DNA of 41,177 nt from a virus, in IMG/VR virus record IMGVR_UViG_3300027793_002186, positions 1-41,177 of that record. One strand, written 5' to 3'. How positions within the stretch are numbered: position 1 is the first letter of the stretch; each line of letters starts with the position of its first letter. This document shows, piece after piece, positions 2,805-35,135 of this stretch. A model generated the notes under the pieces. The model did no database searches. It was not told where the DNA came from and saw nothing but the letters and a program-made list of their open reading frames with translations. A program made the translations under genes and the position numbers.

Positions 2805-2809
2805 GGCAA

Positions 2810-3127
2810 ATGAGCAAAATAGCAGCAATTCAAACACTTTGTCAAAAAGGGTTGATTGATAAAGGAACAGTTCTTGGAGTGGCCGAAACACCAGGTTCAA
2901 GAGTATATCACAGATTTGTGGTTGCACATACAATTGGTGCTCCAGATGTACAAATTACTGGGGTACATATACAAAATAATACAAGCTTGGTTTTGGACAT
3001 CAACAAGATTGTTGAGGTGGACGGAATGGGGTTGGAACGTTATCTGCAACATGCAGATTTAGATAACAACGGAAGTCAAATCAACAGGGGCAAAAAACGT
3101 GGTAGGCGGCCCAAACACCGCAAGTAA
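2810..3127 (+). CDS. Small protein with basic C-terminal tail, unknown function
   Basis: Not recognised. 105 aa, starting 5 bp after the clpA stop with AAGG just upstream, so it is probably translationally coupled to the unfoldase. The middle is a predicted beta-rich stretch (VYHRFVVAHTIGAPDVQITGVHI). The last 12 residues, GKKRGRRPKHRK, are strongly basic and resemble an AT-hook-like (GRRP) nucleic-acid-binding tail. An adaptor for the Clp protein or a small DNA/RNA-binding protein are both possible; neither is shown by the sequence. Confidence 0.7.
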   Translation: MSKIAAIQTLCQKGLIDKGTVLGVAETPGSRVYHRFVVAHTIGAPDVQITGVHIQNNTSLVLDINKIVEVDGMGLERYLQHADLDNNGSQINRGKKRGRRPKHRK

Positions 3128-3151
3128 ATACTACAAATAGGACATAAATCA

Positions 3152-3328
3152 ATGGCGCAAATAGCTAATCAAACTATATCTATATCTATCAGTAAACTGA
3201 TTAAGGATAATGAACAACTGGACAGTGTGCTAAGTTCAGAACAATTGTTGTCACTATTTGAAAGCCTGCCCAGTGTAGTAGAACAAATTATTGATGACAC
3301 TACACTGGTTATTGAAGTTACTATTTAA
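3152..3328 (+). CDS. 58-residue unknown protein
   Basis: A short frame beginning MAQIANQTISISISKLIKD and ending VIEVTI, with AGGA at 3140-3143 about 8 nt before the ATG. It alternates beta-type residues at both ends with an amphipathic helical middle (LLSLFESLPSVVEQIIDD), reads as coding, and fills an otherwise empty gap. No family recognised. It lies between the basic-tail gene and the first late structural gene. Confidence 0.55.
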   Translation: MAQIANQTISISISKLIKDNEQLDSVLSSEQLLSLFESLPSVVEQIIDDTTLVIEVTI

Positions 3329-3334
3329 AATTTT

Positions 3335-3342
3335 CATAAATA
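3335..3342 (+). promoter_or_regulatory. T4-late-type promoter octamer CATAAATA
   Basis: CATAAATA differs by one base from the T4 late consensus TATAAATA and sits 25 bp before the ATG of the first collagen-like structural gene, a spacing that fits a late start with a short leader. No -35 box is seen, as expected for late promoters read by a gp55-like sigma factor. The assignment rests on motif and position only. Confidence 0.5.
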
Positions 3343-3343
3343 T

Positions 3344-3360
3344 CAACAAATCAATTGTTG
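3344..3360 (+). repeat. Inverted repeat CAACAA-N5-TTGTTG in leader
   Basis: A 6-bp inverted repeat with a 5-bp centre, immediately after the late-type octamer and ending 7 bp before the start codon of the next gene. It could be an operator or a weak leader hairpin over the ribosome-binding region. A similar CAACA/TGTTG element lies next to the octamer at 25234. Confidence 0.4.
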
Positions 3361-3367
3361 AGCAATT

Positions 3368-4075
3368 ATGGAAAGTCTTGTCTTATTACCCACTACTTCA
3401 GGTAAAGTTAACGTAACTGGGGAAAAACAAAAAGGCGCTGGTTACACAAATTTTCTTGGTGGCAGCCACACTGTTGCAATTTCCTTGAATAATTTCAGTG
3501 GTAGAATATATATTCAAGCCTCCCTTGCTGATAATCCCGCTGACGATGATTGGTTCCCTGTGTTTTTGCAGTCGGATATGCCGTTTGTCCAATTTCCAAG
3601 AGATTTATTCAACCCCAGTGGGCTCTATGGAGGTGACACAGGAACCTTTGCATACACCTTTGTTGGCAACTATGTGTGGTTAAGGGCCATTGTAAATCGG
3701 GATTATTTAACGCCAACACCTATAAATGACAGCACTGTAGGCAGTGTAAGTGAGATTTTATTAAATTATGGAGCTCTTAGTCCTGGATTTATTCCCAAGG
3801 GGCCTATCCTAGGACCAACAGGACCAGCAGGACCTCCTGGCTCTTCTGTAGTAAGGAGTTTTCAAACTCCTTTTTCTCAGGTTGATCTTGACGGAGACTT
3901 GTTTACTGTTGTACACGGTCTTGGACAAAAGCTAGTGCTTGTGCAGGTATATGATCTCAACTATCAGCAAATATCGCCCACGGGTATATTATTGCTAGAT
4001 GAAATGAGATGTCAATTGGATTTGGCAGCGCAAACTCCAATTTCAGGAGTTTGGCATGTTTTGGTATCAAGATAA
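3368..4075 (+). CDS. Tail-fibre/virion protein with short collagen-like stretch
   Basis: 235 aa. The N-terminal ~140 residues are beta-rich (IYIQASLADNPADDDWFPV, YVWLRAIVNRDYL), of the kind seen in small-subunit virion adhesins. A short collagen-like Gly-X-Y run follows (GPTGPAGPPGS), then a C-terminal motif FTVVHGLGQKLVLVQVYD...WHVLV. That last domain resembles a recurrent phage fibre-tip module (HxLGxxxVxVQVYD). The architecture predicts a trimer. The gene opens the late structural block behind the octamer at 3335 and is followed 18 bp later by a small gene of the same block. Confidence 0.75.
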   Translation: MESLVLLPTTSGKVNVTGEKQKGAGYTNFLGGSHTVAISLNNFSGRIYIQASLADNPADDDWFPVFLQSDMPFVQFPRDLFNPSGLYGGDTGTFAYTFVGNYVWLRAIVNRDYLTPTPINDSTVGSVSEILLNYGALSPGFIPKGPILGPTGPAGPPGSSVVRSFQTPFSQVDLDGDLFTVVHGLGQKLVLVQVYDLNYQQISPTGILLLDEMRCQLDLAAQTPISGVWHVLVSR

Positions 4076-6806: not shown

Positions 6807-8159
6807 ATGCCAGTCTCTGCTGCAAAACTAGTTATACAAGCAAACAAGTGTATAGTTGCTGCTAATCAATCAATTGAGGCTACGGCTCAGTTGGCTGGTT
6901 TACAAAAAGCTTTGGAAGGTGTGTTTTGTGTTGCGAATTGTGCTGCGTTGCCAGCAGCGGCAGATAATCAAGGTAGATTTATTTGGTTGACTGATGTTTG
7001 TTCCTATCGTTTCAGTGACGGAAAAATATGGACCAATGATTTTCGAACTAATCTTATAGGAGCATGTGGATTTGCTTGGGGCTGGAACTATCAAGGTTCT
7101 TTAGGCAACCTCTCGTCAACACCTGTAAGTTCTCCAGTTAGAGAGGTTACGTCAAGTAACGATTGGATCAGTTTGGACACAAATGGCGCATTTTCAGGAG
7201 GCCTTAAATCTGATCGCTCGTTATGGATGTGGGGGTACAATACGTGTGGTTTCTTAGGTAACAACTCTGTTGCAAATCAAAGTAGTCCCGTAAGAGAAAT
7301 ATCAAGCAGTACAACATGGTGCGCCATAGGTATAAGTGCATTTTCAACCTTTGCTTTGAAATGCGACGGCTCCCTTTGGTCCTGGGGAGATAACTTCTGT
7401 GGCAATTTGGGAGACGGTACTAAAATAGGCAGGAGTAGTCCTGTAAGAGAAATAAGTTCCAGCAGTAATTGGTGCAAAGTCTCCCGAGGGGGTTACAGGC
7501 ATTTTTCTGCAATAAAAACAGATGGCAGTCTTTGGACATGGGGAACAAATTTCTGTGGTACATTAGGAACCGGCAATACAACGTTTTTTAGTTCTCCAGT
7601 AAGAGAAATCAGCAGTAGTACAACATGGTGTAATGTACAAAATGGCTACAGAATTACTGTTGCACAAAAGACCGACGGCACTTTATGGGCTTGGGGGTTT
7701 AACTCATATGGGCAATTGGGCAATCAAACCACAACCAATTTCAGCAGTCCTGTAAGAGAAATCACCAGCTCAGTTAATTGGACAACAATAGGTATCGGAA
7801 CTTTTCATTCATCTGCAATTAAAACCGATGGAACCTTATGGCTTTGGGGACTCGGGACAAGTGGGCAGTTAGGACAGTTTTCTATTACTAATCAAAGTTC
7901 TCCTGTACAGGAAATAACTTCCAGTACCGATTGGTGTCAAGTATCAGGTGGCTGTGTTCACACCGCAGCTCTTAAAACTAACGGCACATTATGGGCTTGG
8001 GGTTCCAATCTTTGCGGAGCATTGGGAAACAACTCAGTCAGTAATGTATCTAGTCCTGTGAGAGAAATTACCTCAGCCACATCTTGGAGCACGTTAAGTG
8101 CTGGAAGCAAACAAACTATAGGAATTCAAGGTAAAATTTCTGGATTTTTTGCGATATGA
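6807..8159 (+). CDS. RCC1-type seven-bladed beta-propeller protein, copy 1
   Basis: 450 aa. A ~70-residue N-terminal module (VANCAALPAAADNQGRFIWL, then RFSDGKIW) precedes seven RCC1-like repeats of about 50 residues. Each repeat has the core LWxWGxNxxGxLG and the linker SSPVREISSSxxWC; all seven linkers can be counted. RCC1 repeats form a seven-bladed propeller used for protein or ligand binding. In a phage structural block the likely job is receptor binding or fibre decoration, which is inference. Most blades carry two cysteines (xxCGxLG and WCxV). No signal peptide is seen. The start codon follows the previous stop by 3 bp. Confidence 0.85.
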   Translation: MPVSAAKLVIQANKCIVAANQSIEATAQLAGLQKALEGVFCVANCAALPAAADNQGRFIWLTDVCSYRFSDGKIWTNDFRTNLIGACGFAWGWNYQGSLGNLSSTPVSSPVREVTSSNDWISLDTNGAFSGGLKSDRSLWMWGYNTCGFLGNNSVANQSSPVREISSSTTWCAIGISAFSTFALKCDGSLWSWGDNFCGNLGDGTKIGRSSPVREISSSSNWCKVSRGGYRHFSAIKTDGSLWTWGTNFCGTLGTGNTTFFSSPVREISSSTTWCNVQNGYRITVAQKTDGTLWAWGFNSYGQLGNQTTTNFSSPVREITSSVNWTTIGIGTFHSSAIKTDGTLWLWGLGTSGQLGQFSITNQSSPVQEITSSTDWCQVSGGCVHTAALKTNGTLWAWGSNLCGALGNNSVSNVSSPVREITSATSWSTLSAGSKQTIGIQGKISGFFAI

Positions 8160-16458: not shown

Positions 16459-18069
16459 ATGGCAAATATTTTAGGGTTGAATTTTTCACATGATGGTGCA
16501 GTTGCTCTAGTTGTTGATGGACGATTGCACTCAGCATTAGCTACAGAAAGGATTACTCGCAAAAAGAAAGCACATGGTATCACCAAACAGCTTGTAGAAA
16601 GTTTATTAAATAACGCTGGATTAGCGGTACAAGACATAAAAGCTATTGCTCTTGCAGATTACATACAACAATATTGTGGTGATGTACTACATTTGTTTGA
16701 CGGTATTGGCCTACCGGTTAGAGAAACCAGTTACACATTGTATAATAACGATGTTAGGCAACTTACAGGCAAGTTTATGGGTAACTGGGAAGTTCCTGTC
16801 TATGTCTTGCCACATCATCTAGCACATGCCAGCAGTAGCTTTTACACAAGTAATTTTGAAAGTGCAGTATGTTTAAGTGTTGATAGCAGTTTTGGAAATT
16901 TACAAGATAACAGCCTTATACTAGAAGGCAACGATGTGCAGTTGCTAACTGTTGATTGTCCTAATCTTATTAGTGGTATAGGTTATGCAACATTTACAGA
17001 GCTATTGGGATATCAGCCAGCGTTTGCTAAGGCTGGTATTACCATGGGTTTAAGCAGTTACGGTGCAGAAATGCTTAGCCTAGAAAAAGATTATTTTTTG
17101 TCTAAAATGTTCTGGCCAAACAACGACACAGGCGTCCAAATTGAATTAGAATATAGAAAATTTTGGAGTGACGTCTGGCAAAAGTTTAGTGCAAAACATC
17201 CCCATGAGCTTACTTTCCAAGAAAGTGCAAATTTAGCAGCCACTATTCAATATTTGCTAGAAAAAAGCCTAATCAAAACAGCTGAAAATATCCGCACACG
17301 TTACCCATATAAAAATTTATGCCTAAGCGGAGGAAGCTTTTTAAATTGTATCAGCAATACTGCAATCAAAAATCTAGGGTTATTTGACAACATACATCAT
17401 TTTCCAGCTTGTGGGGACGATGGAAACGCTGTTGGGGCAGCTTTATGGGTAGCACATACCTTATATCAAGCACCTCGACAACAATATTCAACAGCTGATC
17501 TTGCATACCTAGGCTTGAATCAAATATCCATAACTGATCCTGATTATTCTAGAGTATGCGATATATTGTCACAAGGAGGTATTGTGGCATGGCATATGGG
17601 ACGTAGTGAATATGGGCCAAGAGCCTTAGGAGCTCGCAGTTTGCTAGCAGATCCTAGGAAATATCATATGAGAGAGAAAATTAACTTTGCAGTAAAAAAC
17701 CGCGAATGGTTCAGACCTATTGCACCAGTGGTGTTAGAGCATTTATGTCATGAGTGGTTTGATTTAGAAGGGCCTAGCCCTTATATGCTTTACACTGCAA
17801 ATGTTTTACAACCTGAAAAAATACCAGCAGTAACGCATGTTGATAACAGCAGTCGTCCTCAGACTGTATCTGAGTTGTCCAACCCTTACTTGTGGAAACT
17901 ATTGAACGAATGGAACAATCAAACTGGGGTACCCGTGTTGGTCAACACGAGTTTGAATGGTGGAGGAGAGCCTTTATGCGAAACCGAACAAGACAGTTTG
18001 AAATTTTTCCAAAAACATGATAGTGTTACTGCTTTAGTTTTAAATGGTAAACTTTTGGAGAGAAAATGA
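16459..18069 (+). CDS. Carbamoyltransferase (NodU/CmcH/TobZ family)
   Basis: 536 aa, the usual length for O-carbamoyltransferases. The N-terminal Kae1-like domain starts ILGLNFSHDGAVALVVDG and has the metal-ligand pattern HHLAHA (His119 and His123). CGDDGNAVGAALW lies at about 320. The C-terminal YrdC-like domain has YGPRALGARSLLADPR and REWFRPIAPVV, and ends with VLVNTSLNGGGEPLCET. The family transfers a carbamoyl group from carbamoyl phosphate, through carbamoyl-AMP, to a sugar or antibiotic hydroxyl. Here the acceptor is probably a glycan built by the neighbours. The next gene overlaps it by 4 bp (ATGA). Confidence 0.93.
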   Translation: MANILGLNFSHDGAVALVVDGRLHSALATERITRKKKAHGITKQLVESLLNNAGLAVQDIKAIALADYIQQYCGDVLHLFDGIGLPVRETSYTLYNNDVRQLTGKFMGNWEVPVYVLPHHLAHASSSFYTSNFESAVCLSVDSSFGNLQDNSLILEGNDVQLLTVDCPNLISGIGYATFTELLGYQPAFAKAGITMGLSSYGAEMLSLEKDYFLSKMFWPNNDTGVQIELEYRKFWSDVWQKFSAKHPHELTFQESANLAATIQYLLEKSLIKTAENIRTRYPYKNLCLSGGSFLNCISNTAIKNLGLFDNIHHFPACGDDGNAVGAALWVAHTLYQAPRQQYSTADLAYLGLNQISITDPDYSRVCDILSQGGIVAWHMGRSEYGPRALGARSLLADPRKYHMREKINFAVKNREWFRPIAPVVLEHLCHEWFDLEGPSPYMLYTANVLQPEKIPAVTHVDNSSRPQTVSELSNPYLWKLLNEWNNQTGVPVLVNTSLNGGGEPLCETEQDSLKFFQKHDSVTALVLNGKLLERK

Positions 18070-18611
18070 AAATCTATCTTGGAGCTGGTGAACACCGAAT
18101 ACAAGGTTATATCCATTGCGATTATGATCCTGCTTGTAACCCTGATTATTGTTTTGATTTAGAAAAGGATATGTTTCCCTTTCCAGATAATAGCGTAGAC
18201 ATAATACAAGCAACGCATGTGTTAGAGCACTTAGGTGAGGGTTATTTTCACTGTATGCAAGAAATTTACAGGGTTTGCAAACCAGGCGCAGTGATTCATG
18301 TGCATGTTCCGCACCATCGGAGTGATGATTTTTGGAGTGATCCAACGCATAAGAGAGCAATTACTGTAGCTGGCTTGAAATTGTTTGGGCGCAAATACAA
18401 CGAATTAAGTAGGAAACAAAAAGTGCATGCATCAAAACTTGCAGAATATTACAAGGTGGATTTTGAAGTTATAGAGCATAGTTTACGACCTGTGGAGAAA
18501 TATAGAGAGAGGTTTGTTGGTCAACCAAAAGAGCAAGTAGAAGAATATCTTGAACAACATTGCAATTTGGTGGATGAAGTATATATTAAACTAATAGTTA
18601 TCAAAGAGTAA
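18066..18611 (+). CDS. Class I SAM-dependent methyltransferase
   Basis: 181 aa, starting in an ATGA overlap with the carbamoyltransferase. It begins KIYLGAGEHRIQGYIHCDYD (motif I and the acidic end of strand beta2), followed by FPFPDNSVDIIQATHVLEHL and IYRVCKPGAVIHVHVPHH, a standard class I methyltransferase core of the Methyltransf_11/UbiE type common in polysaccharide clusters. Substrate unknown; probably a sugar or lipid in the pathway of its neighbours. Confidence 0.85.
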   Translation: MKIYLGAGEHRIQGYIHCDYDPACNPDYCFDLEKDMFPFPDNSVDIIQATHVLEHLGEGYFHCMQEIYRVCKPGAVIHVHVPHHRSDDFWSDPTHKRAITVAGLKLFGRKYNELSRKQKVHASKLAEYYKVDFEVIEHSLRPVEKYRERFVGQPKEQVEEYLEQHCNLVDEVYIKLIVIKE

Positions 18612-19973
18612 ATGACTAGCAATTTTGAACACCTGCGCGAAACAGTTTTAGACTTAACAAAACGAGACCAGCAAGAGTTAGCTTTTATGCTACTTGATAA
18701 CTATTGGGAAATTGCGCACCTACCAGATGATTATGAATTATTAGGATGGCTATCCTTAAAGATTGGGCACAGAACTCTTGCAATAAAGTGTGCTGAATCA
18801 ATGCTGGGATTTGCGTCAACAAACAAAGAAAAATACGCAGCTCGAATAAACCTAAACAAAGTATACTATCGCGCAAATTTTCCAGAAAAGGCTTTATTTT
18901 ACAGCCAGCTAAATTTGGATATTGACCCACATGATTTTGACAATGTTGTTGCATATGCAGCAGCACTAAAGTTGAATAATCAAAGAGAAGAAAGTGAAAA
19001 AGTTATAAATGAATTAAAGCAATGTGATTGGATAACTCCTGAACAAAGGTTGCAACTACGTATAACCGATACCCATTCTCTTTTACGTCAAGGGCAAACA
19101 GCACAAGGTATAAAATGGTTCCTTCACTCAGACAAGGATAGAACCACAATTTTTGATATAAAAGGAATGAAACAGTGGAACGGTGTAATTTCCCCAGGCA
19201 CAGTATTATATGTTAATGCAGGTGGCGGAGTGGGTGATGAAATAATAAACATCCGGTTTTTCAACACTCTCAAAAAGTTAGGCATGACTCCTTGTCTGTT
19301 CTCTCTTTTAGAGCGTCCAGATTTAGCCCAGATATTTCAGAGACATGGATTTGATGTAATAACCAATCCAAATGAAATTGATATTAAGTGTCCATGGACA
19401 TATATGATGAGTCTGCCCATTGATTTAAACGTAAATGAAAACCAATTGTGGTATGGACCTTATCTTGCTCCGCTTAACCAACAGAAAAATCAACTTCCAA
19501 AAACTGATAAATTCAGGATTGGTATAAAGTGCAACGGAAATCCTTGGTTCGAACAAGACGTTTACAGAAGCATACCTTTTGAAGAAGTTATGCAAATTAT
19601 GCCAAAGGATGCTGAAATTTATTATTTTGACAAGGATGATTCAAAGGTAGGGTGCATCAATCTAAATTTGCGTATTAACACTTGGGATGATACTTTAGAC
19701 TTCCTTTCTCAGATGGATATTGTAATCAGTAGCTGCACAAGTATAATACATGCAGTTGGAGCAATGGGCATTACTGGAATAGTCTGTGTGCCTATTCTAG
19801 AATATTACATTTGGACAAGTACACATACCAACGAAAGCACTCCTTGGTATGGATCAAATTTAAAAGTCTTAAAGCAAAAAAAAGTTAGATCTTGGAAAGA
19901 GCCTTTGGAACGAGCTCAAGAAATTATTCAGGAACACATGCAGCTAAAAGGATCACAGCAAAATGCTAATTAA
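18612..19973 (+). CDS. TPR-like plus GT9-like glycosyltransferase
   Basis: 453 aa, starting right after the previous stop. Residues 1 to about 180 are helical repeats of TPR type (ALFYSQLNLDIDPHDFDNVVAYAAAL). The rest resembles a GT-B enzyme of the heptosyltransferase (GT9) class: VLYVNAGGGVGDEIINIRFF, FRIGIKCNGNPW, and MDIVISSCTSIIHAVGAMG, which matches the donor-site region. TPR/GT9 fusions are known among polysaccharide enzymes. The donor sugar cannot be told. It overlaps the following sulfotransferase gene by 11 bp. Confidence 0.65.
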   Translation: MTSNFEHLRETVLDLTKRDQQELAFMLLDNYWEIAHLPDDYELLGWLSLKIGHRTLAIKCAESMLGFASTNKEKYAARINLNKVYYRANFPEKALFYSQLNLDIDPHDFDNVVAYAAALKLNNQREESEKVINELKQCDWITPEQRLQLRITDTHSLLRQGQTAQGIKWFLHSDKDRTTIFDIKGMKQWNGVISPGTVLYVNAGGGVGDEIINIRFFNTLKKLGMTPCLFSLLERPDLAQIFQRHGFDVITNPNEIDIKCPWTYMMSLPIDLNVNENQLWYGPYLAPLNQQKNQLPKTDKFRIGIKCNGNPWFEQDVYRSIPFEEVMQIMPKDAEIYYFDKDDSKVGCINLNLRINTWDDTLDFLSQMDIVISSCTSIIHAVGAMGITGIVCVPILEYYIWTSTHTNESTPWYGSNLKVLKQKKVRSWKEPLERAQEIIQEHMQLKGSQQNAN

Positions 19974-20742
19974 CAAAAAGTTTCACATGATCACAGGATT
20001 GCCTAGATCAGGAAGCACCTTATTGAGTAGCATACTCAAACAAAACCCAGATATGCATGCTAGCATTACTGATCCTCTAGCAACAATGGTAAAGGGTGTA
20101 GTAGAATCCAGTAACGATGGTGCTGGAATAAGTTCTGAAGTTCCTATTGAACGCAGAAAGAACCTAGTGCGTTCATTGTTTTATGGTTACTATCAAGATG
20201 TGAATGCGTCAATTATCTTCAATACTAACCGTGCATGGACAAGAATTTTGCCTCTTCTGGATGACGTATTTCCTGACGCTAAGGTGCTACTTTGTGTACG
20301 AGATATCAAATGGATATTAGACAGTTTTGAGTCAGCGCATAGAAGGCACCCATTTAACAAAAATACAATTTTTGGTGGTATGGGCGATAGCGTTTACGAT
20401 CGAATGGATCTTCTTATGGATAAAGGAGGAATAGTTGAATTTGCTTACACAGGACTAAAACAAGCCATTACAAGCGCAGAACGGCACAAGTTGATGTTGA
20501 TCGAATACGAGCAACTCTGCAAGAATCCCAAAGGTATGATGCAAGCCATCTACAATTTTATTGAAGAACCCTATTTCTCTCATGATTTTGATAATGTTGA
20601 GGCCAGTTGGGACGAATATGACGCAGAAATTGGTATTGAGCTGCACAAGGTGAGAACAAAGGTAGAATGGAAAGAACGCCCAACAATTTTACCTCCCGAT
20701 ATTGTAGCCAAATATTCTAATATGGAAGTATGGAGATACTGA
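19963..20742 (+). CDS. Sulfotransferase
   Basis: 259 aa. MITGLPRSGSTLLSSIL (about 8-24) is the 5'-phosphosulfate-binding loop of PAPS-dependent sulfotransferases, and VLLCVRDIKWILDSFES holds the 3'-phosphate-binding strand and helix (RD..W...S). The enzyme would move sulfate from PAPS to a sugar or protein hydroxyl. The same cluster holds a degenerate APS-kinase-like domain (24285-25208), a suggestive link to PAPS supply. The gene overlaps both neighbours or nearly so, within one operon. Confidence 0.88.
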   Translation: MLINKKFHMITGLPRSGSTLLSSILKQNPDMHASITDPLATMVKGVVESSNDGAGISSEVPIERRKNLVRSLFYGYYQDVNASIIFNTNRAWTRILPLLDDVFPDAKVLLCVRDIKWILDSFESAHRRHPFNKNTIFGGMGDSVYDRMDLLMDKGGIVEFAYTGLKQAITSAERHKLMLIEYEQLCKNPKGMMQAIYNFIEEPYFSHDFDNVEASWDEYDAEIGIELHKVRTKVEWKERPTILPPDIVAKYSNMEVWRY

Positions 20743-20744
20743 AA

Positions 20745-21557
20745 ATGCCTGATCCAAGACAGCCTATTACCCTTCATGTTATCTTGCGCACTTGTGACAG
20801 AACCAATGTTCACAATGATTGGCGTGTGCGCTATTGTGATTTGGAAAAAAGTGAAATAATTAGAGGATGTGTTACAAGTTTGATCAGATCAATTACAAAC
20901 GTAACTTGGTTCAAGGTTAAACTTACAATTTTAGACGATCACAGCAGCGAAAATACAGTCTCGTTTTTGAAATCTGCAGGTGCAGCTTTGGAAAATTTTG
21001 AAATAATACAACTAGAAGAACAAGGGTATCAAAATTCTGGACATCAGCAATTTTTGCATGCAAAGAATACTGACGCTGATCTTGTTTATTGTATAGAAGA
21101 TGATTATTTGCATCAACCATCTTCAATAACTGAAATGGTAGACAGTTATTACCTTTTTGTATCTAAGCTGAAGAATCCAAACATTGTGCTGTATCCATTT
21201 GACGCTCCTGAATGTTATGATCCACCAACTGATCCTGTCTGGGTAGTTCATGGAACACAAAGACACTGGCGCACAGGAATATACTCTACATTTGTGTTAT
21301 TCACCATTCCTGATTTAATACGGCAACACTGGAATTTGTTTGAAACCTTGGCACTCAATTACAACGGTATGTATCTACGTAAGGGCAAAGAACATGAGTT
21401 TCGTTACACTGAAGATAACACTATTTGGAACATTTGGAAACATGGGGAAGCTATAAGATTCAACCCTATTCCCAGTTTAGCTCTTCATTTACAATTTGAT
21501 AGGCAACTGGAACCTTTTATTGACTGGAAAGAATGGTGGGCAAAATATGCAGTTTAA
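20745..21557 (+). CDS. GT2-like glycosyltransferase
   Basis: 270 aa from the ATG at 20745, chosen because GGAG at 20732-20735 is well spaced; an in-frame ATG at 20730 lacks a site. The sequence fits a GT-A fold: LHVILRTCDRT, then VKLTILDDHSSENTVSFL (strand with DDxS), and YCIEDDYLHQPSSITEM, whose EDD triad would bind the nucleotide-sugar metal. The C-terminal half ends in a WGxHLQ-like segment (LALHLQFD). Donor and acceptor unknown. Confidence 0.75.
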   Translation: MPDPRQPITLHVILRTCDRTNVHNDWRVRYCDLEKSEIIRGCVTSLIRSITNVTWFKVKLTILDDHSSENTVSFLKSAGAALENFEIIQLEEQGYQNSGHQQFLHAKNTDADLVYCIEDDYLHQPSSITEMVDSYYLFVSKLKNPNIVLYPFDAPECYDPPTDPVWVVHGTQRHWRTGIYSTFVLFTIPDLIRQHWNLFETLALNYNGMYLRKGKEHEFRYTEDNTIWNIWKHGEAIRFNPIPSLALHLQFDRQLEPFIDWKEWWAKYAV

Positions 21558-21927
21558 AAGCTGTGGAGAATGCAATGCCTGTTGTCAAGGTCTTTTATAT
21601 GGAAATGCATATGGAAACGTGCAAAGTATGGGACAACAGTGTAAATTTTTAGTATCTAAACGTTGTAGCATTTATGATACGAGGCCAAAATTTTGTTTTG
21701 ATTACCAATGTGCTTATACACAAGGATTACTTGACGAAGATATGAGGCCAGATAAATGTGGATTACTAGCTACAGTAAAGTATGATGAAACTACTCAAAA
21801 ACAGTATCTCCATGTTACTGAAACCAAACCAGATATTCCTTGGGAAACATATATGAAGCTTGATAAATCTGTCCATAAGTTAGGAACGTATTGGGTATTG
21901 AGGAAATGGCATGATATACAATCCTGA
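21547..21927 (+). CDS. YkgJ-type CxxCxxCC metal-cluster protein
   Basis: 126 aa from the ATG at 21547, preceded by GGTGGG. FKSCGECNACCQGLL carries the CxxCxxCC signature of the YkgJ zinc/iron-chelating family, and further cysteines follow (QCKFLVSKRCSIYDTRPKFCFDYQC) in the family's usual order. Its members bind a metal or Fe-S centre, and most have no known reaction. The 11-bp overlap with the GT2-like gene and 17-bp overlap with the next methyltransferase place it firmly in this pathway, perhaps as a redox or metal-using modifier. Confidence 0.8.
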   Translation: MQFKSCGECNACCQGLLYGNAYGNVQSMGQQCKFLVSKRCSIYDTRPKFCFDYQCAYTQGLLDEDMRPDKCGLLATVKYDETTQKQYLHVTETKPDIPWETYMKLDKSVHKLGTYWVLRKWHDIQS

Positions 21928-22576
21928 TTTCTTTAAACCAAAAGACATGAAACATGCTCGTAGCATAATCTTAACATCAGAAGATTCGACAACTGATGCC
22001 CGTTGGGAATATGAAACGTGTTGGACTTTAAAAATGTGTGAGACTTTTACTGATATAACAAGCAACAGTATTGTATTAGATTGGGGATGCGGGGTAGGAA
22101 GACTTAGCAAGGCATTGATTGATAAATTTGGGTGTCAGGTAGTTGGTGTAGACTTAGAACCAAAAATGCTTGATTTTGCTAAGGATTATGTTAACAATAA
22201 TAGGTTTTCTGCTATTACTCGCACAGAAGCGTATAGCCAACTGCCATCAAAATTTTTTACACACACTTTGAGTGTTTGGGTCTTCCAACACAGTATTGAT
22301 TTGGAAAAGGAAATTTCCTTAGTATACCGGAGCATGCAACCAGGAGCGTGGTTGCTGGTAGTAGAAAACATTACAAAAGCCATTCCAGATGCTGTTGCTT
22401 TTTTTGATGATGGTGTACAAACGTCCAATGTATTGGATAACACAGGTTTTGAAACACAAGCAACTGGTAAAATCCCCCTAGCGTATACTAGTCTTAAAAT
22501 ACACACAAACAGTTGGTGGAAAACCTACACTAAACCAAACAAAAGAGGTCAAATTGAATACAACCTTCATTATTAA
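21911..22576 (+). CDS. Class I SAM-dependent methyltransferase
   Basis: 221 aa. VLDWGCGVGRLSKALIDKFGCQVVGVDLEPKMLDFA holds motif I (DWGCGVGR) and the acidic residue ending strand beta2 (VDLE). SVWVFQHSIDLEKEI and MQPGAWLLVVEN complete the core. It is the second methyltransferase of the cluster and is not especially similar to the one at 18066, so each probably has its own substrate. Confidence 0.85.
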   Translation: MIYNPDFFKPKDMKHARSIILTSEDSTTDARWEYETCWTLKMCETFTDITSNSIVLDWGCGVGRLSKALIDKFGCQVVGVDLEPKMLDFAKDYVNNNRFSAITRTEAYSQLPSKFFTHTLSVWVFQHSIDLEKEISLVYRSMQPGAWLLVVENITKAIPDAVAFFDDGVQTSNVLDNTGFETQATGKIPLAYTSLKIHTNSWWKTYTKPNKRGQIEYNLHY

Positions 22577-23483
22577 CGGCGGTGCAGGCCGAGTTATTTC
22601 TGCAATTCCTGCATTGGAAAAATATGCAAAACTAAATCCGGATGATGATTTCAAAGTTTTGATACATGGTTGGGAGTTACTGTTTTGGAGTCATCCAATT
22701 TTGCAACATAGAAGCTTTAGTATTGGACAAAAAGGAGCTTTTGAACTTTTTATCCGAAATAGCAAAGTGGTATGTCCAGAACCCTATTATATTCATGGCT
22801 ATTACAATCAAAAATTAAGTCTGGCTGAAGCTTTTGACGAAGAAATCAACAAAACAACTGATCATTCAGATTTGGAATCACCACATTTATATATTAGCAA
22901 TTTAGAAAGAGATACTGTTAAAAGAATTATCCAAGAAAAATTGCACGAAATGAATAAAAAACGGCTAGTTGTTGTTCAACCGTATGGAAGCGGCATTGGC
23001 ATAATGAACGGTAGGCCTTATGACACTAGCCATAGAAGTATGGATCCTGATGATTATCTTAAAATAATTCAAAAATTCAACAAAGATATATTAGTTGTTT
23101 ATTTTGGATTACGTGAACTCCGGCATCCTGGAGACAAAACAAGTTTAAATATGGAATCAATGGATCCAGATTTACGTATGTATTTGAGCTTCATTGCTGA
23201 GTGTGACTATTTTGTTGGTTGTGATAGTGTAGGACAACATATGGCAAGGGCTATGAACAAGCCTGGGCTTGTACTTATGGGAAGTACGGATGAAACCAAT
23301 GTCAGCTATCCTAAACATTTCAAAATTTATCGGAACGGCCAAAAACCAATTTATAGTCCAATACGGCTAACAGGAACTGATTGTGAGTTTGCAGATCGAA
23401 TGAACGATGGTATTATGAAATTTTCAACATCACAAATAAATGAAATTGCTAATATTGTAAATTTTGAGGTTTTCAAAGGTTAA
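22554..23483 (+). CDS. GT9-like glycosyltransferase
   Basis: 309 aa from a TTG start, preceded by AGAGGT and overlapping the methyltransferase by 23 bp. INGGAGRVISAIPALEKYAKLNPDDDFKVLIHGW resembles the N-terminal loop of ADP-heptose/LPS heptosyltransferases. VVVQPYGSG and the later CDYFVGCDSVGQHMARAMNKPGLVLMGST match the GT9 donor site (D/S..H.A.A...P...L.G). The acceptor is unknown; with the gene at 18612 it gives two GT-B-type enzymes in the cluster. Confidence 0.75.
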   Translation: MNTTFIINGGAGRVISAIPALEKYAKLNPDDDFKVLIHGWELLFWSHPILQHRSFSIGQKGAFELFIRNSKVVCPEPYYIHGYYNQKLSLAEAFDEEINKTTDHSDLESPHLYISNLERDTVKRIIQEKLHEMNKKRLVVVQPYGSGIGIMNGRPYDTSHRSMDPDDYLKIIQKFNKDILVVYFGLRELRHPGDKTSLNMESMDPDLRMYLSFIAECDYFVGCDSVGQHMARAMNKPGLVLMGSTDETNVSYPKHFKIYRNGQKPIYSPIRLTGTDCEFADRMNDGIMKFSTSQINEIANIVNFEVFKG

Positions 23484-23485
23484 CA

Positions 23486-24277
23486 ATGTATGATCAAAAT
23501 GCAGGTTTGACAAAAGTTAAAAAATTCTTACTTGTCAGCAGCGGCAAAGGTGGCGTTGGTAAGTCCACTATTGCTGCGAATCTAGCAGGTGCATTGAATA
23601 ATTTGGGTTTAAAAGTGGGAATTCTGGACGCTGACATTTCAGGACCTAGTCAAGCAGTGATGTGGGATTTACCTACAAATGTACCTGTTGCTGTAACAGA
23701 AAATAAGGAACTGAGCTTGCCTTTTGTATCTCATGGGGTAAAAATTGCCACATTGGCTACACGCATAGCAGACAACCACGCAGTGCAATGGCGTGGCCCC
23801 ATGGCAAGCATAGCCCTTGTAAATTTGTTGTGTCATACAAATTGGGAAGAACTTGACTGTTTGCTTGTTGACATGCCTCCAGGTACAGGTGATATACAAG
23901 TGAGTATCTGCCAGAAGCTACCAGAGGCTAAGGTAGTTTCTGTAACCACTCCACAACAAGTTGCTGTTGCTGATACGCGAAGAGGGATGCAAATGTATAT
24001 TGCTCAAAACATAACATTGATAGGTGTTATAGAAAACATGAGCACACACATTTGTGAAAATTGCGGTCATAACAATGCTATTTTCGGAACTGATGGCGCA
24101 CAGCAACTTTGTAACGAGTATCAAGTTCCACTACTGGGTCAACTTCCACTAGATCCTTTTGTACGATTTCAAGCAGATTCTGGCAAACCTTTGACTATTT
24201 GTGATCCCCTACATCCAGTAAGTAAAATTTATGTAAAAATAGCAGAACAAATATGGAATTCTTTCAAGGAGAAATAA
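23486..24277 (+). CDS. Mrp/ApbC/NBP35-type P-loop ATPase
   Basis: 263 aa with AAAGG before the ATG. The deviant Walker A SGKGGVGKST (GKGGVGKS at 20-27), DADISGPSQ, LLVDMPPGTGDIQVSI and a CxxC in CENCGHNNAIFG are all hallmarks of Mrp/ApbC iron-sulfur cluster carriers. Such proteins bind and pass on [4Fe-4S] clusters. A phage copy inside a decoration cluster is unusual. Possible clients nearby are the CxxCxxCC protein (21547) and the Cys-motif RfbH-like enzyme (28311). Related ParA/BY-kinase-like roles are less likely given the CxxC and MPPGTGD. Confidence 0.88.
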   Translation: MYDQNAGLTKVKKFLLVSSGKGGVGKSTIAANLAGALNNLGLKVGILDADISGPSQAVMWDLPTNVPVAVTENKELSLPFVSHGVKIATLATRIADNHAVQWRGPMASIALVNLLCHTNWEELDCLLVDMPPGTGDIQVSICQKLPEAKVVSVTTPQQVAVADTRRGMQMYIAQNITLIGVIENMSTHICENCGHNNAIFGTDGAQQLCNEYQVPLLGQLPLDPFVRFQADSGKPLTICDPLHPVSKIYVKIAEQIWNSFKEK

Positions 24278-25246: not shown

Positions 25247-25825
25247 ATGAGCTCTTATGTTTGTTTGATCGTACCAAAAAAATTACATACTGCTGCTGCT
25301 AAACAATGGTTTCAGTGTGTTGCATCATCTGTTCCCAGCGGCTTAATTGGCGAAACATCACTATACAGTGATGCAGACACTAAAACAAGTAATTTTTATG
25401 CCAAAAAAACACGTTCTGGAAAAGTGTCTTATGTTATACCTTTGGTTCGAGACTTGGATGCAAGTGAAGTTCATAGCCTTGTTCAACAATGGTGCAAGAG
25501 TTATCCCACTGGAGACTTTCTTGTTGACTACAGTCAAAACAGCCTGGAACCACTGATTGGTACAAATAGCCTAGAACAATCCAAAATCAAGGAAATTTTG
25601 GATCTTTGGGCCAAAAGTCAACACAACACGTGGATGAAAGATGCAGTTGACAAAGGCTGGAAATTTGGATTGAAGATGAGTAGCAGAGAAAAGACTCATC
25701 CTTTGATTCAACCATGGGAGCAATTGCCCACTTATGCACGAGAGCAAAATCTCGCTGCCGTCGAGGATCTAATCAAAATTTTGGACAGCTTTGGCTACGA
25801 GATAACGCAAAAACCAACTGCTTGA
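25247..25825 (+). CDS. RyR-domain protein
   Basis: 192 aa. The C-terminal third carries the RyR-domain pattern: HNTWMKDAVDKGWKFGLKMS, HPLIQPWEQLPTYAREQN, then VEDLIKILDSFGYEI. RyR domains occur in ryanodine receptors and in bacterial and phage proteins, where they may bind nucleotide-derived ligands. The N-terminal 110 residues (SYVCLIVPKKLHTAAAKQWF, then VSYVIPLVRDLD) are unknown. No ribosome site precedes the ATG; a late-type octamer ends 5 bp before it. It sits alone between the decoration cluster and the VWA unit. Confidence 0.7.
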   Translation: MSSYVCLIVPKKLHTAAAKQWFQCVASSVPSGLIGETSLYSDADTKTSNFYAKKTRSGKVSYVIPLVRDLDASEVHSLVQQWCKSYPTGDFLVDYSQNSLEPLIGTNSLEQSKIKEILDLWAKSQHNTWMKDAVDKGWKFGLKMSSREKTHPLIQPWEQLPTYAREQNLAAVEDLIKILDSFGYEITQKPTA

Positions 25826-27446: not shown

Positions 27447-28292
27447 ATGGAAACAGCAATTTCAGTTTTTGGTGCAACAGGTTTTGTTGGTAAGTCATTT
27501 GTGCAACAAACACACCACAAGTGCATCTGTGTTCCTCGTGAACACCGTGTGCCACCAACTGATAACATATTGTATCTGATTTCCACTACAGACAATTACA
27601 ATGTATTCAGTGATTTACACAAAGACATTGACACCAATCTAAATGTTTTGATGGAAACACTACAACATTGTAAGAAAACAGGTTTGGTTTTCAATTTTGT
27701 ATCTTCTTGGTTTGTGTATGGAAGCCATAGCCAATTGCCTGTTCCTGAAACTGCTTACTGTGATCCCAAAGGTTTTTACAGTATTACCAAAAGAACCGCT
27801 GAACAACTCTTGATGAGTTGGTGCAATACGTTTGATGTAAATTATCGAATCCTTCGCCTGAGTAACATTTATGGTCCAGGAGATGCAGGTGCAAGCACTA
27901 AGAAAAATGCTATACAGCATATGGTTACACAATTGTATCATGACAAGCCTATTCAACTCTATGAGGGTGGTTTAGTTTCTCGCGACTTGTTGTACATTAG
28001 CGACGCGGTAAGAGCTATCAGCTTAGTGTTGGAGAAAGGTGAACTCAATTCCGTCTACAACATTGGTTACGGGAAACCCACTTTATTGCGTGATGTTATT
28101 GATATTGCTACTCTCTTAACAAACAGTCGGTCTCATGTCAGCAACATACCTACACCTGATTTCCACAAAAAGATACAAAGCAGAGATTTTTGGCTTGACA
28201 CAACAAAACTGCAAAAACTTGGATTTGCACCACAAGTGTGCCTGACTGAAGGTTTAACATCCTTGATCAATAGTATTGCCCTACACTCTTAA
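27447..28292 (+). CDS. NAD-dependent sugar epimerase/dehydratase (extended SDR)
   Basis: 281 aa. ISVFGATGFVGKSF is the GxxGxxG dinucleotide-binding loop only a few residues from the ATG, so the start is probably right. YSITKRTAEQLL gives the YxxxK catalytic pair, and LRLSNIYGPGD and DLLYISDAVRAISLVLEKG follow as in NAD(P)-sugar epimerases or dehydratases. The gene ends 18 bp before an RfbH-like 3-dehydrase, fitting a two-step route to a modified sugar nucleotide. TATAAT at 27439-27444 abuts the start and no ribosome site is visible. Confidence 0.9.
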   Translation: METAISVFGATGFVGKSFVQQTHHKCICVPREHRVPPTDNILYLISTTDNYNVFSDLHKDIDTNLNVLMETLQHCKKTGLVFNFVSSWFVYGSHSQLPVPETAYCDPKGFYSITKRTAEQLLMSWCNTFDVNYRILRLSNIYGPGDAGASTKKNAIQHMVTQLYHDKPIQLYEGGLVSRDLLYISDAVRAISLVLEKGELNSVYNIGYGKPTLLRDVIDIATLLTNSRSHVSNIPTPDFHKKIQSRDFWLDTTKLQKLGFAPQVCLTEGLTSLINSIALHS

Positions 28293-28310: not shown

Positions 28311-29615
28311 ATGAGCATTCGAACTGAAATACAAAATTTTCTTAAACAAGTTGGGGAAAAGGAAAGCAATCTATTTCCTTATATGGCAAACTCAGGCGTT
28401 TTTGAGCCCGGTAAGTCCACAGTTTATTATTCAGGCCCATACTGGGATGAAGATGAGGTGATGGAAATGATGCACAGCTTGTTGAAAGGCAAATGGTTGA
28501 GCAGTGGCGAAAAAGTTGCTCGTTTTGAAAAGCACTTTGGTGAGAAGTTCAATTTAGCACACAATGTAATGGTCAACAGCGGAAGCTCGGCCAATCTGGC
28601 CATGATTGGCGCATTGAAAAAGTATTATGGTTGGCGAGACAACAGTGAAATCCTGGTGTGTGCATGCGGCTTTCCAACTACTATTGCTCCTATTGTTCAA
28701 AACAATCTAAAGCCAGTATTTGTAGACATTGACTTCACTGACCTCAACTGGGATTTGGCTGATCTTGAATCCAAAATCTCACCAAATACAGTTGCGTTGT
28801 TCAGTAGCCCTGTGTTGGGTAACCCTTATGATTTTGATCGTATTCAAGACATTGCTACCACTCATGGATTGAAAATCATCTCAGACAATTGCGACAGTTT
28901 GGGTAGCAAGTGGCGAGGCCAATATCTCACAGACTTCAGTGTTGCTGCCAGTTGCAGTTTTTATCCAGCTCATCATCTGTGCACAATGGAAGGTGGCATG
29001 GTCAGTAGCCAAACAGCTGAAATTGTTGCCCTTGCAAGAAGCATCAGTTGGTGGGGCAGAGATTGCCATTGTGTTGGGGCACAAAACCTAATCCAGTGTG
29101 GTATGTGTGGAGAAAGATTCAAGAAGTGGATTCCTGAATACGACGCAATTTTGGATCACAAATACCTTTTCAGCAACATGGGTTACAATCTCAAGCCACT
29201 GGATCTGCAAGGCGGTGTAGGGCTAGTGCAACTTAAAAAATGGGAAAAGATACACACTCTACGTCGTGAGAACAAGCAGCAGATACAAGCCATTATGGAA
29301 ACCATCCCTGGAGTGCGTGTGATAAATGAACACACAGAGGCCGAAACCAGCTGGTTTGGTGTGCCTGTTGTGTGCGACAACAAAGATCAGAAACAGTGGT
29401 TGGTAAGCTTTTTGGAGGGCAATAGAGTGCAAACCCGCAACTATTTTGCTGGTAATATCTTAGTTCATCCTGGTTATCGCCACTTGGGCGATTGGACGAT
29501 GTTTCCCAACTCCAATCAGGTGCTGGATAGAGTGTTTTTCCTTGGATGCAGTCCTACCATCACTGGTGAGATGATCAGCTACATTGGTGATGTAGTCAAG
29601 CGTTTCAACCGATAA
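28311..29615 (+). CDS. rfbH: RfbH/E1-type CDP-4-keto-6-deoxyglucose 3-dehydrase (DegT family)
   Basis: 434 aa of DegT/DnrJ/EryC1 fold. The PLP lysine position reads SFYPAHHL with His221, not Lys; this swap marks the 3-dehydrases (E1/RfbH, ColD) as opposed to aminotransferases. RDCHC...QCGMCGERF supplies Cys252, 254, 263 and 266, at the place where E1/RfbH holds its [2Fe-2S] cluster and ColD does not. DHKYLFSNMGYNLKPLDLQ and TRNYFAGNILVHPGY are also RfbH-like. The family removes the C3 hydroxyl of a 4-keto-6-deoxy sugar using PMP and a reductase, on the route to 3,6-dideoxyhexoses such as abequose. No reductase or CDP-sugar 4,6-dehydratase is seen here, so the host may supply them. Confidence 0.85.
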   Translation: MSIRTEIQNFLKQVGEKESNLFPYMANSGVFEPGKSTVYYSGPYWDEDEVMEMMHSLLKGKWLSSGEKVARFEKHFGEKFNLAHNVMVNSGSSANLAMIGALKKYYGWRDNSEILVCACGFPTTIAPIVQNNLKPVFVDIDFTDLNWDLADLESKISPNTVALFSSPVLGNPYDFDRIQDIATTHGLKIISDNCDSLGSKWRGQYLTDFSVAASCSFYPAHHLCTMEGGMVSSQTAEIVALARSISWWGRDCHCVGAQNLIQCGMCGERFKKWIPEYDAILDHKYLFSNMGYNLKPLDLQGGVGLVQLKKWEKIHTLRRENKQQIQAIMETIPGVRVINEHTEAETSWFGVPVVCDNKDQKQWLVSFLEGNRVQTRNYFAGNILVHPGYRHLGDWTMFPNSNQVLDRVFFLGCSPTITGEMISYIGDVVKRFNR

Positions 29616-29678: not shown

Positions 29679-30218
29679 ATGAGCTTGATTGAGCGGGCAC
29701 GAGTTTTCTGCATTGCAGCCCACGAAGCTGTTGGTCAGCGACGCAAGTATAGTGATGCACCCTATTGGCACCACCCTGAGCACGTGGTAAACCTTCTGCA
29801 GAAGTTTTCTACTCAACCTGTCACGGAGGAGATGATTGCAGCCGCGTGGCTACATGATGTTGTTGAAGACACACAAGTAGGTCTTGAAACCATCCGAGAC
29901 CTCTTTGGAAACAGTGTGTATCACCTGGTGGAAAACCTCACCGACATCTCACGTCCCGAGGATGGGAATCGTCGGGTGCGGAAAGCCAAGGACCTTGAGC
30001 ACACTCAGCAAGCCTCGCAAGAGGCCAAGACTGTGAAATGTGCTGATCTTATCAGCAATGCCTCTTCCATTGTTGACAACGATCCGGGATTTGCTGTTGT
30101 TTGGCTGCGTGAGAAGGAGGCACTGCTGGAAGTGCTGGCAGATGCTGATCCCGGGGTTTACTCTGAGGCTGTTCGCGTGTATCAGGAGTGTGTTCGGAAA
30201 CTGAAGAAACAAGCCTAA
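29679..30218 (+). CDS. HD-domain (p)ppGpp-hydrolase-like protein
   Basis: 179 aa, with GGAG upstream. The pattern fits stand-alone alarmone hydrolases (SpoT/MESH1 HD domain): AHEAVGQRRKYSDAPYWHHPEHVV, AAWLHDVVEDTQVGLETIRDLFG, LVENLTD and KTVKCADLISNASSI. The histidines, HD pair and ED motif needed for Mn-dependent removal of the 3'-pyrophosphate are present, and no synthetase domain follows. It could lower host (p)ppGpp during infection. Other HD phosphohydrolase substrates cannot be excluded. Confidence 0.85.
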   Translation: MSLIERARVFCIAAHEAVGQRRKYSDAPYWHHPEHVVNLLQKFSTQPVTEEMIAAAWLHDVVEDTQVGLETIRDLFGNSVYHLVENLTDISRPEDGNRRVRKAKDLEHTQQASQEAKTVKCADLISNASSIVDNDPGFAVVWLREKEALLEVLADADPGVYSEAVRVYQECVRKLKKQA

Positions 30219-33935: not shown

Positions 33936-33959
33936 CACAGGCTCCAATTGTGCTATAGT
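33932..33959 (+). promoter_or_regulatory. Sigma70-type promoter, TTGACA-16-TATAGT
   Basis: TTGACA (33932-33937) again overlaps the previous stop codon, with a 16-bp spacer to TATAGT (33954-33959). It gives a leader of about 18 nt with AGGAGA before the GTG at 33984. The trio's second and third genes therefore each have their own promoter. Confidence 0.8.
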
Positions 33960-33983
33960 GCCCTTGAACACAGGAGAACAACA

Positions 33984-35135
33984 GTGAAGCGACATGTGAT
34001 TGCCCCTCGCCCCAACTGGCGTGAGCGTGCAGAAGAAGTGGGATTCACCTATCACACCTCAGGGAAGCCCAGTGAGAGCGGAGATGGTACCTACTGGGAC
34101 GAGAGTGTGGCCTACGAGTTCACCAGTGCAGAGATTGACGAGCTGGAGGCTGCAACCGAAGAGGTTCATGCCCGCTGCCTCGATGCTGTGGACCGTGTGT
34201 TCAGTGATCGTCCCCTGATGAAGCGGATGGGCATTCCCGAAGCCTACCACGACTACATCCAGTGGAGTTGGGCACGGAATGATCCCACGCTCTATGGGCG
34301 TTTTGACTTTGCCTATGACGGCAAAACTCCGCCCAAGATGCTGGAATACAACGCCGACACCCCTACCATGATCATCGAAAGTGCGATGATGCAGTGGTTT
34401 TGGCTACAGGACCAGCGTCGTGGTGCGGACCAGTTCAACTCGCTGCACGAAAAGCTGCTGGAGCGTTTTGGTGAGATCCGAACCCAGATGACTCCTGGAG
34501 AGCGGTTCTACTTCGCTGGCTTTCGAGACAACGAAGAGGAAAGCCAAACCTGCCGCTATCTGCAGGACCTGGCCACACAGGCTGGCATGGATGCACACTT
34601 CATCGACCTTGGTGAGATTGGCTGGCTCAACAACCAGTTTGTGGACCTTGAGGATCGTCCAATCAAGTATTGGTTCAAGCTGTATCCCTGGGAGTGGATG
34701 TTCACAGACGAGTTTGGCGAGCACACCCGTCAGGACGTGTCAGGAATTGTGGAGCCCATCTGGAAGTGTGTGCTCAGCAACAAGGGCATCCTGCCTGTAC
34801 TGCATGAGATGTTCCCCAACCACCCCAATATCCTGCCTGCCCACTGGGATGACACCCGGCTCAAGAGCGGCAGCTATGTGAGCAAGCCCATGCTGAGCCG
34901 AGAGGGAGCCAACATCACCGTGTTTGAGCAGGGCAAGGAAGTTGCCCGCACTGACGGCAAGTATCACGGGCACAAGATCTACCAGGAGCGTGCCTCCCTG
35001 TTTCAGCAGGACGGGCACTATGCTGTGATCGGAAGCTGGGTGGTGGGCAACCAGAGTGCAGGCATCATTGTGCGCGACAGTGGCGAAGAGATTGTGCGCG
35101 ATCTCAGCCGAGTGGTGCCTCACTGGTTCCTGTGA
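33984..35135 (+). CDS. Glutathionylspermidine-synthetase-like ATP-grasp enzyme (YgiC/YjfC type)
   Basis: 383 aa, almost the same length as E. coli YgiC (386). The GTG at 33984 has AGGAGA well placed. KRHVIAPRPNWRERAEEVGFTYHT opens as in YgiC. FDFAYDGKTPPKMLEYNADTPT, KYWFKLYPWEWMF, KGILPVLHEMFPNHPNILP, YVSKPMLSREGANI and SWVVGNQSAGIIVRD follow in the synthetase-family order, including ATP-grasp residues. Only the synthetase half is present, with no amidase domain. True GspS joins glutathione to spermidine, while the substrates of YgiC/YjfC remain unproven. It completes the DUF350/DUF1190/synthetase trio. Confidence 0.92.
   Translation: MKRHVIAPRPNWRERAEEVGFTYHTSGKPSESGDGTYWDESVAYEFTSAEIDELEAATEEVHARCLDAVDRVFSDRPLMKRMGIPEAYHDYIQWSWARNDPTLYGRFDFAYDGKTPPKMLEYNADTPTMIIESAMMQWFWLQDQRRGADQFNSLHEKLLERFGEIRTQMTPGERFYFAGFRDNEEESQTCRYLQDLATQAGMDAHFIDLGEIGWLNNQFVDLEDRPIKYWFKLYPWEWMFTDEFGEHTRQDVSGIVEPIWKCVLSNKGILPVLHEMFPNHPNILPAHWDDTRLKSGSYVSKPMLSREGANITVFEQGKEVARTDGKYHGHKIYQERASLFQQDGHYAVIGSWVVGNQSAGIIVRDSGEEIVRDLSRVVPHWFL

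Follow-up and report, generated by a model that had tools for sequence, protein, structure and literature searches.

Described 3-dehydrases

3,6-Dideoxyhexoses define O-antigen serotype in bacteria. E1, RfbH, AscC, and DdhC are C3-deoxygenating enzymes, CDP-4-keto-6-deoxyglucose being the substrate of E1 and RfbH, and the cysteine motif published for E1 is reportedly C-x57-C-x-C-x7-C. ColD, a GDP-4-keto-6-deoxymannose 3-dehydrase, has no Fe-S cluster. The occurrence of four cysteines in E1-type enzymes is supported by a review that gives no residue numbers (PMC8987622). SpnQ combines an Fe-S cluster with PMP, acts on a dTDP-linked substrate, and is reported to accept ferredoxin or flavodoxin systems as reductants (PMC8987622). 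Auxiliary rfbH/ascC/ddhC genes have been reported in marine viruses (PMC10653327), and surface-glycan genes have been discussed in cyanophages (PMC9602691). Phage-borne rfbH-type genes are already annotated, as is the S-H68 protein QBP05885 ('CDP-4-dehydro-6-deoxy-D-glucose 3-dehydratase'). What is new here is the subfamily, its SDR partner, and the likely nucleotide, for which our incomplete coverage of the literature returned no report on this dehydrase subfamily, the SDR, or a dTDP-linked version.

The window analyzed here is a 41,177-nucleotide stretch of viral DNA (IMG/VR record IMGVR_UViG_3300027793_002186). Its gene at 28311-29615 (plus strand) very probably encodes an Fe-S, vitamin-B6 enzyme removing the C3 oxygen of an activated sugar. 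The protein shares with E1, RfbH, AscC, and DdhC the fold, a histidine in place of the PLP lysine, and four cysteines beginning with C-x57-C-x-C, and C3 deoxygenation is the expected reaction. It differs from them by its identity (31-38%), the last cysteine spacer, the lack of CDP-glucose genes nearby, the presence of an SDR partner, and the lack of a detected E3. We consider it probable that this DegT-fold, PMP/[2Fe-2S] E1-type C3-dehydrase acts together with the SDR, likely on dTDP-4-keto-6-deoxyglucose, to provide a 3,6-dideoxyhexose. The likeness to SpnQ would then extend to Fe-S and PMP, the dTDP-linked substrate, and generic ferredoxin or flavodoxin reductants, although SpnQ acts on a 2-deoxy sugar, dTDP-4-keto-2,6-dideoxyglucose, in an antibiotic-sugar (spinosyn) pathway.

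A predicted E1-type dehydrase in a clade apart from RfbH

The open reading frame is intact, starts with ATG, and codes for 434 residues; the equivalent frame of the reverse strand contains many stops. Comparison with an 83% identical relative gave a dN of 0.12 for a dS of about 2.3, which is saturated, indicating strong purifying selection. The latter result, together with the 83% identical viral relatives and the 60-63% identical cyanophage relatives, indicates that the frame is not due to chance.

The only Pfam match was DegT_DnrJ_EryC1. Searching the PDB by sequence ranked E1 of Yersinia (3bcx) first (1e-68) and ColD second (6e-45), with the K-type aminotransferases, which retain the PLP lysine, far behind. 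The AlphaFold model, built with 48 sequences, had a pLDDT of 92.5, and E1 was again first with Foldseek (3e-37) and with VIA-align (3bcx, Z of 50.8, rmsd of 2.4 for 403 residues); the Z scores of ColD (46.6) and of the aminotransferases (about 46) were lower by about four units. In a maximum-likelihood tree obtained by a quick search, with SH-aLRT support only and without SpnQ, the query clade (34 rows, SH-aLRT of 100, stem of 1.48) was distinct from the 19 rows of canonical RfbH (support of 93), from ColD-like proteins, and from lysine-type proteins. Actinobacterial Cys-type homologues fell inside the canonical RfbH clade. These analyses, including the phylogeny with RfbH, ColD, and aminotransferases suggested in the preliminary description, agree with its proposal of an E1-type 3-dehydrase and place the query outside the K-type aminotransferases. 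The same description had also likened the enzyme to RfbH, and this part does not hold for RfbH proper. The best NCBIfam match was indeed the RfbH equivalog NF011936, with a score of 347 bits that is below the curated cut-off of 423; clade members scored 354-359 bits against this profile and canonical members 641-683 bits. Thus, the score and the tree together place the query outside canonical RfbH. Separation of the clade from RfbH is firm, whereas its position as sister to RfbH is not, since several deep branches had a support below 95.

Relatives with 83% identity were found in six large viral contigs. The single-sequence search gave 17 viral loci; the alignment search gave at least 583 confirmed candidate stretches, of which the best 80 are listed and which may include more distant kin. 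The subfamily is therefore abundant, and it extends to cultured cyanophages (62.7% identical proteins in Synechococcus phages S-H68, S-B05, S-B43, RN05-S, and RB11-B) and to a 642 kb uncultured huge phage (51%). The latter record also encodes two 3-dehydrases about 6 kb apart, one ColD-like (2452-3621 of locus L021) and one E1-type (10010-11311 of the same locus). Cyanophages S-CAM7 and the ACG-2014f group produce proteins with 28-30% identity, that of S-CAM7 grouping with ColD. Bacterial contigs with at least 50% identity were few (Nitrosomonadaceae, Prochlorococcus single cells, Bacteriovoracaceae, Polyangiaceae, and others). In two of them, the gene is located beside genes for SecD/YajC/Tgt/QueA-like and FtsH/RibD-like proteins, respectively, as judged by eye from the translations, and these ordinary chromosomal neighbours indicate that cells own the dehydrase too. 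As judged from these searches, the clade appears overwhelmingly viral with few bacterial members. At the DNA level, the right half of the window had no match in phage records. Annotations of members usually follow RfbH, or else read aminotransferase or hypothetical protein.

An SDR gene adjacent to the dehydrase gene

An extended SDR of 281 residues is encoded at 27447-28292 (plus strand), and its gene stops 19 bp upstream from that of the dehydrase. The protein contains GxxGxxG, SSWFVYG, and YxxxK, without the TDE motif. Membership in the SDR subfamily was defined by a score of more than 140 bits to the window SDR, and adjacency by a distance within 60 nt. The subfamily was present in 80 of the 99 related loci and adjacent to the dehydrase gene in 60, the commonest arrangements being overlaps of 13 nt (32 loci) and 10 nt (19 loci). 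After clustering at 75% identity, it was present in 15 of 20 clusters and adjacent in 14. Canonical RfbH loci contained generic SDR matches only (20-33%). The glycine motif and YxxxK are kept in all members, and SSxFVY is mostly found at the site of TDEVYG in 4,6-dehydratases, indicating that the SDR is a reductase or an epimerase rather than another 4,6-dehydratase. The fold search ended in a tie between UDP-sugar 4-epimerases and GDP-4-keto-6-deoxymannose reductase, so that the choice of a reductase follows from pathway logic. Most likely, the SDR is a C4-ketoreductase (or an epimerase) acting after the dehydrase.

Nucleotide carried by the substrate

RmlB is also an enzyme of rhamnose synthesis. 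Among the 99 related loci, a gene within reach encoded an RmlB-type protein in 40, RmlC in 16, and GMD in 9, and the RmlBs taken as examples exceeded the cut-off for dTDP-glucose 4,6-dehydratase. Contiguous or overlapping genes were found in the order RmlB-SDR-dehydrase (L022 and L150), RmlB-RmlC-SDR-dehydrase (L105 and L173), and RmlB-dehydrase (L016), the RmlB of L022 scoring 362 bits, just below the cut-off of 365.1. In the Bacteriovoracaceae locus L027, rmlA (388 bits for a cut-off of 360.65) and rmlB (441 for 365.1) are divergent to the SDR-dehydrase pair. In the cultured cyanophages S-H68, RN05-S, and S-B05, which belong to the same viral clade as the query, the sugar cluster comprises RmlB, RmlC, and an SDR, although the SDR gene is not adjacent to that of the dehydrase. 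A small family of HldE/TagD-like nucleotidyltransferases was present in 34 of the 99 loci, often before RmlB (e.g. L111, 2813-3358).

No CDP-glucose 4,6-dehydratase or glucose-1-phosphate cytidylyltransferase scored over the cut-off in the 20 related virus records. Together with the RmlB genes and the RmlA and RmlB genes of the Bacteriovoracaceae, this suggests that the substrate is dTDP-linked rather than CDP-linked, although RmlB could be a bystander. The preliminary description had named CDP-4-keto-6-deoxyglucose as the compound to test. On this reading, the dehydrase would act on it just like RfbH and E1, forming a CDP-3,6-dideoxyhexose from a CDP pool supplied by the host. The genomic context does not support this substrate, which we regard as improbable: enzymes for dTDP-sugars belong to the same operons, and the clade is separate from that of RfbH. 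It has in its favour that E1 is the nearest characterized enzyme and that a bacterial genome with a viral-type gene, G021, harbors rfbF and rfbG at a distance of about 18 kb but lacks a canonical RfbH, a layout that makes a CDP-linked substrate possible there. The window is a 41 kb fragment, and the host may supply the CDP-glucose enzymes. In the Nitrosomonadaceae genome G018, a canonical RfbH (750 bits) is beside both CDP enzymes and the viral-type gene is elsewhere; canonical RfbH is also near the CDP enzymes in G026 and G027. Neither RmlA nor an RmlB over the cut-off was found in the window or in the closest jumbo-phage contigs; in this lineage, a dTDP-linked substrate would therefore depend on the host pool.

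More broadly, we tentatively consider, as a possibility somewhat short of even, that a virus-dominated E1-type subfamily with a dedicated SDR makes dTDP-3,6-dideoxyhexoses from the RmlB product with generic ferredoxin or flavodoxin, apart from the CDP-linked (RfbH) and GDP-linked (ColD) routes, and is spread by marine and giant phages. If so, a compact module of two genes, carried and spread by phages, would turn the common precursor of rhamnose toward 3,6-dideoxyhexoses, which are rare. These sugars would then have three nucleotide routes, and phages a means of altering surface or virion glycans that is open to testing.

Candidate cluster ligands

The histidine of SFYPAHH (residues 216-222) that the preliminary description had put in place of the PLP lysine was borne out: His221 (codon at 28971-28973) is aligned with H220 of E1. 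The four cysteines that it had assigned to the E1 cluster positions (252, 254, 263, and 266) are all present, and this assignment stands for C252, C254, and C266 only. It omitted C194, and position 263 is occupied by C in 50, N in 46, V in 2, K in 1, and D in 1 of the 100 clade members (99 loci with at least 49% identity and the query). Loss of C263 in half of the clade rules out Cys252/254/263/266 as the ligand set; this position changed at least 7 times on a tree built without the region. In the alignment of the PDB sequence search, C194, C252, C254, and C266 are paired with C193, C251, C253, and C261 of E1. These four cysteines and H221 are invariant in the 100 members and are also common to canonical RfbH, in which H221 is invariant too (n = 32). 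Since the 32 canonical proteins were chosen for carrying the four cysteines, independent support for the latter comes from their invariance in the 51-row alignment. All 100 members have the spacing C194-x57-C252-x-C254, as do 26 of the 32 canonical proteins, whereas the last spacer, from C254 to C266, is x11 in every member and 7 residues long in 31 of the 32. The candidate ligands are accordingly C194, C252, C254, and C266 (C-x57-C-x-C-x11-C), as predicted from these alignments. Within the AlphaFold model, confidence is lowest in the cysteine loop (about 251-280), with blocks at a pLDDT of 60-78.

Positions 251 and 263 pair as D251/C263 (46 members) or G251/N263 (45 members, including the S-H68 and RN05-S proteins, unlike the query), with few mixtures, which looks structural. 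Functional covariation of the two pairs was not retained, the independent pairs being too few (sign test, p of at least 0.5).

It is quite unlikely that the enzyme is a ColD-like 3-dehydrase without a functional cluster, in which PMP-dependent dehydration would be followed by hydrolysis of the enamine and regeneration of PMP from glutamate. ColD has the same fold and the same Lys-to-His change, and C263 is variable. C194 is also present in the cluster-free ColD and is by itself no proof of a cluster; the weight is carried by C252, C254, and C266, which never vary in the 100 clade members or the 32 canonical RfbH proteins and which ColD lacks; ColD also forms a separate clade. A DegT-family aminotransferase that has lost its lysine, as the Pfam match and the name of the matching PHROG 3139 (aminotransferase) might suggest, is made very unlikely by the PLP lysine being replaced by histidine in all 100 members, by the tree, and by the higher ranks of E1 and ColD in sequence and of E1 in fold.

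Electron supply and proposed reaction

The E3 reductase comprises ferredoxin, FAD, and NAD domains. The FNR-type domain of such reductases (PF00970) was found in none of 17 virus records; it was also missing in G026 and G027, which encode canonical RfbH, so that its absence from the viruses is not discriminating. Fer2 (PF00111) was detected in only 4 of 20 virus records, in frames of 98-130 residues, including those of two annotated cyanophages; a phage ferredoxin gene is another difference between the cultured cyanophages and the query.

In the E1-type reaction that we favour, His221 would deprotonate the PMP-sugar adduct at C4', and the C3 hydroxyl would leave. Two electrons would be delivered one at a time via a cluster on C194/C252/C254/C266 by a host ferredoxin or flavodoxin (phage-encoded in some cyanophages) rather than by a dedicated E3. 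The substrate would likely be dTDP-4-keto-6-deoxyglucose, which many relatives would make with an RmlB of their own and the lineage of the query would take from the host pool. The product would be an NDP-4-keto-3,6-dideoxyhexose. The SDR would next reduce C4, leaving a 3,6-dideoxyhexose for transfer by glycosyltransferases of the phage or of the host.

Neighbouring genes

A block of glycan-type genes located upstream from the dehydrase gene (15627-23483, plus strand), considered as context only, encodes DUF5672, a NodU-type carbamoyltransferase, methyltransferases, a sulfotransferase, and GT2-type and weak GT9-type glycosyltransferases; its portion 18612-23483 is syntenic with contigs L002-L007. 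Genes for carbamoyl-, methyl-, sulfo-, and glycosyltransferases thus accompany the dehydrase gene, which is located downstream from the tail-fibre block. With this setting, the sugar may decorate either the phage fibres or the host surface, with no preference between them; the preliminary description had envisaged a changed host surface or decoration of the phage's own proteins. The tail-fibre region (6807-15590) contains six tandem RCC1-like repeat paralogues of about 430-470 residues each, interrupted by a tail-fibre-type gene (9484-10125).

An iron-sulphur carrier ATPase of the Mrp/ApbC type is encoded at 23486-24277 (plus strand; PF10609, 277 bits; CENCGH motif), with 273 bits against NCBIfam ApbC, under the cut-off of 348. 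Its predicted product is a possible accessory for cluster loading. The gene is present with 62% identity and in the same order in L002-L007. It was rejected as a conserved partner: among related loci it occurs only in the lineage of the phage and in L002-L007, a viral scan with Mrp/ApbC found nothing, and its matches in phage records were below 60% identity and in unrelated phages.

Other genes of the window encode an HD/SpoT-like hydrolase directly 3' of the dehydrase gene (29679-30218), a RyR domain protein (25247-25825; PF02026, 55.6 bits), a SIR2-family protein (39158-39973, minus strand), and a glutathionylspermidine-synthase-type ATP-grasp protein (33948-35135; PF03738, 465 bits), which is 83% identical in L002-L007.
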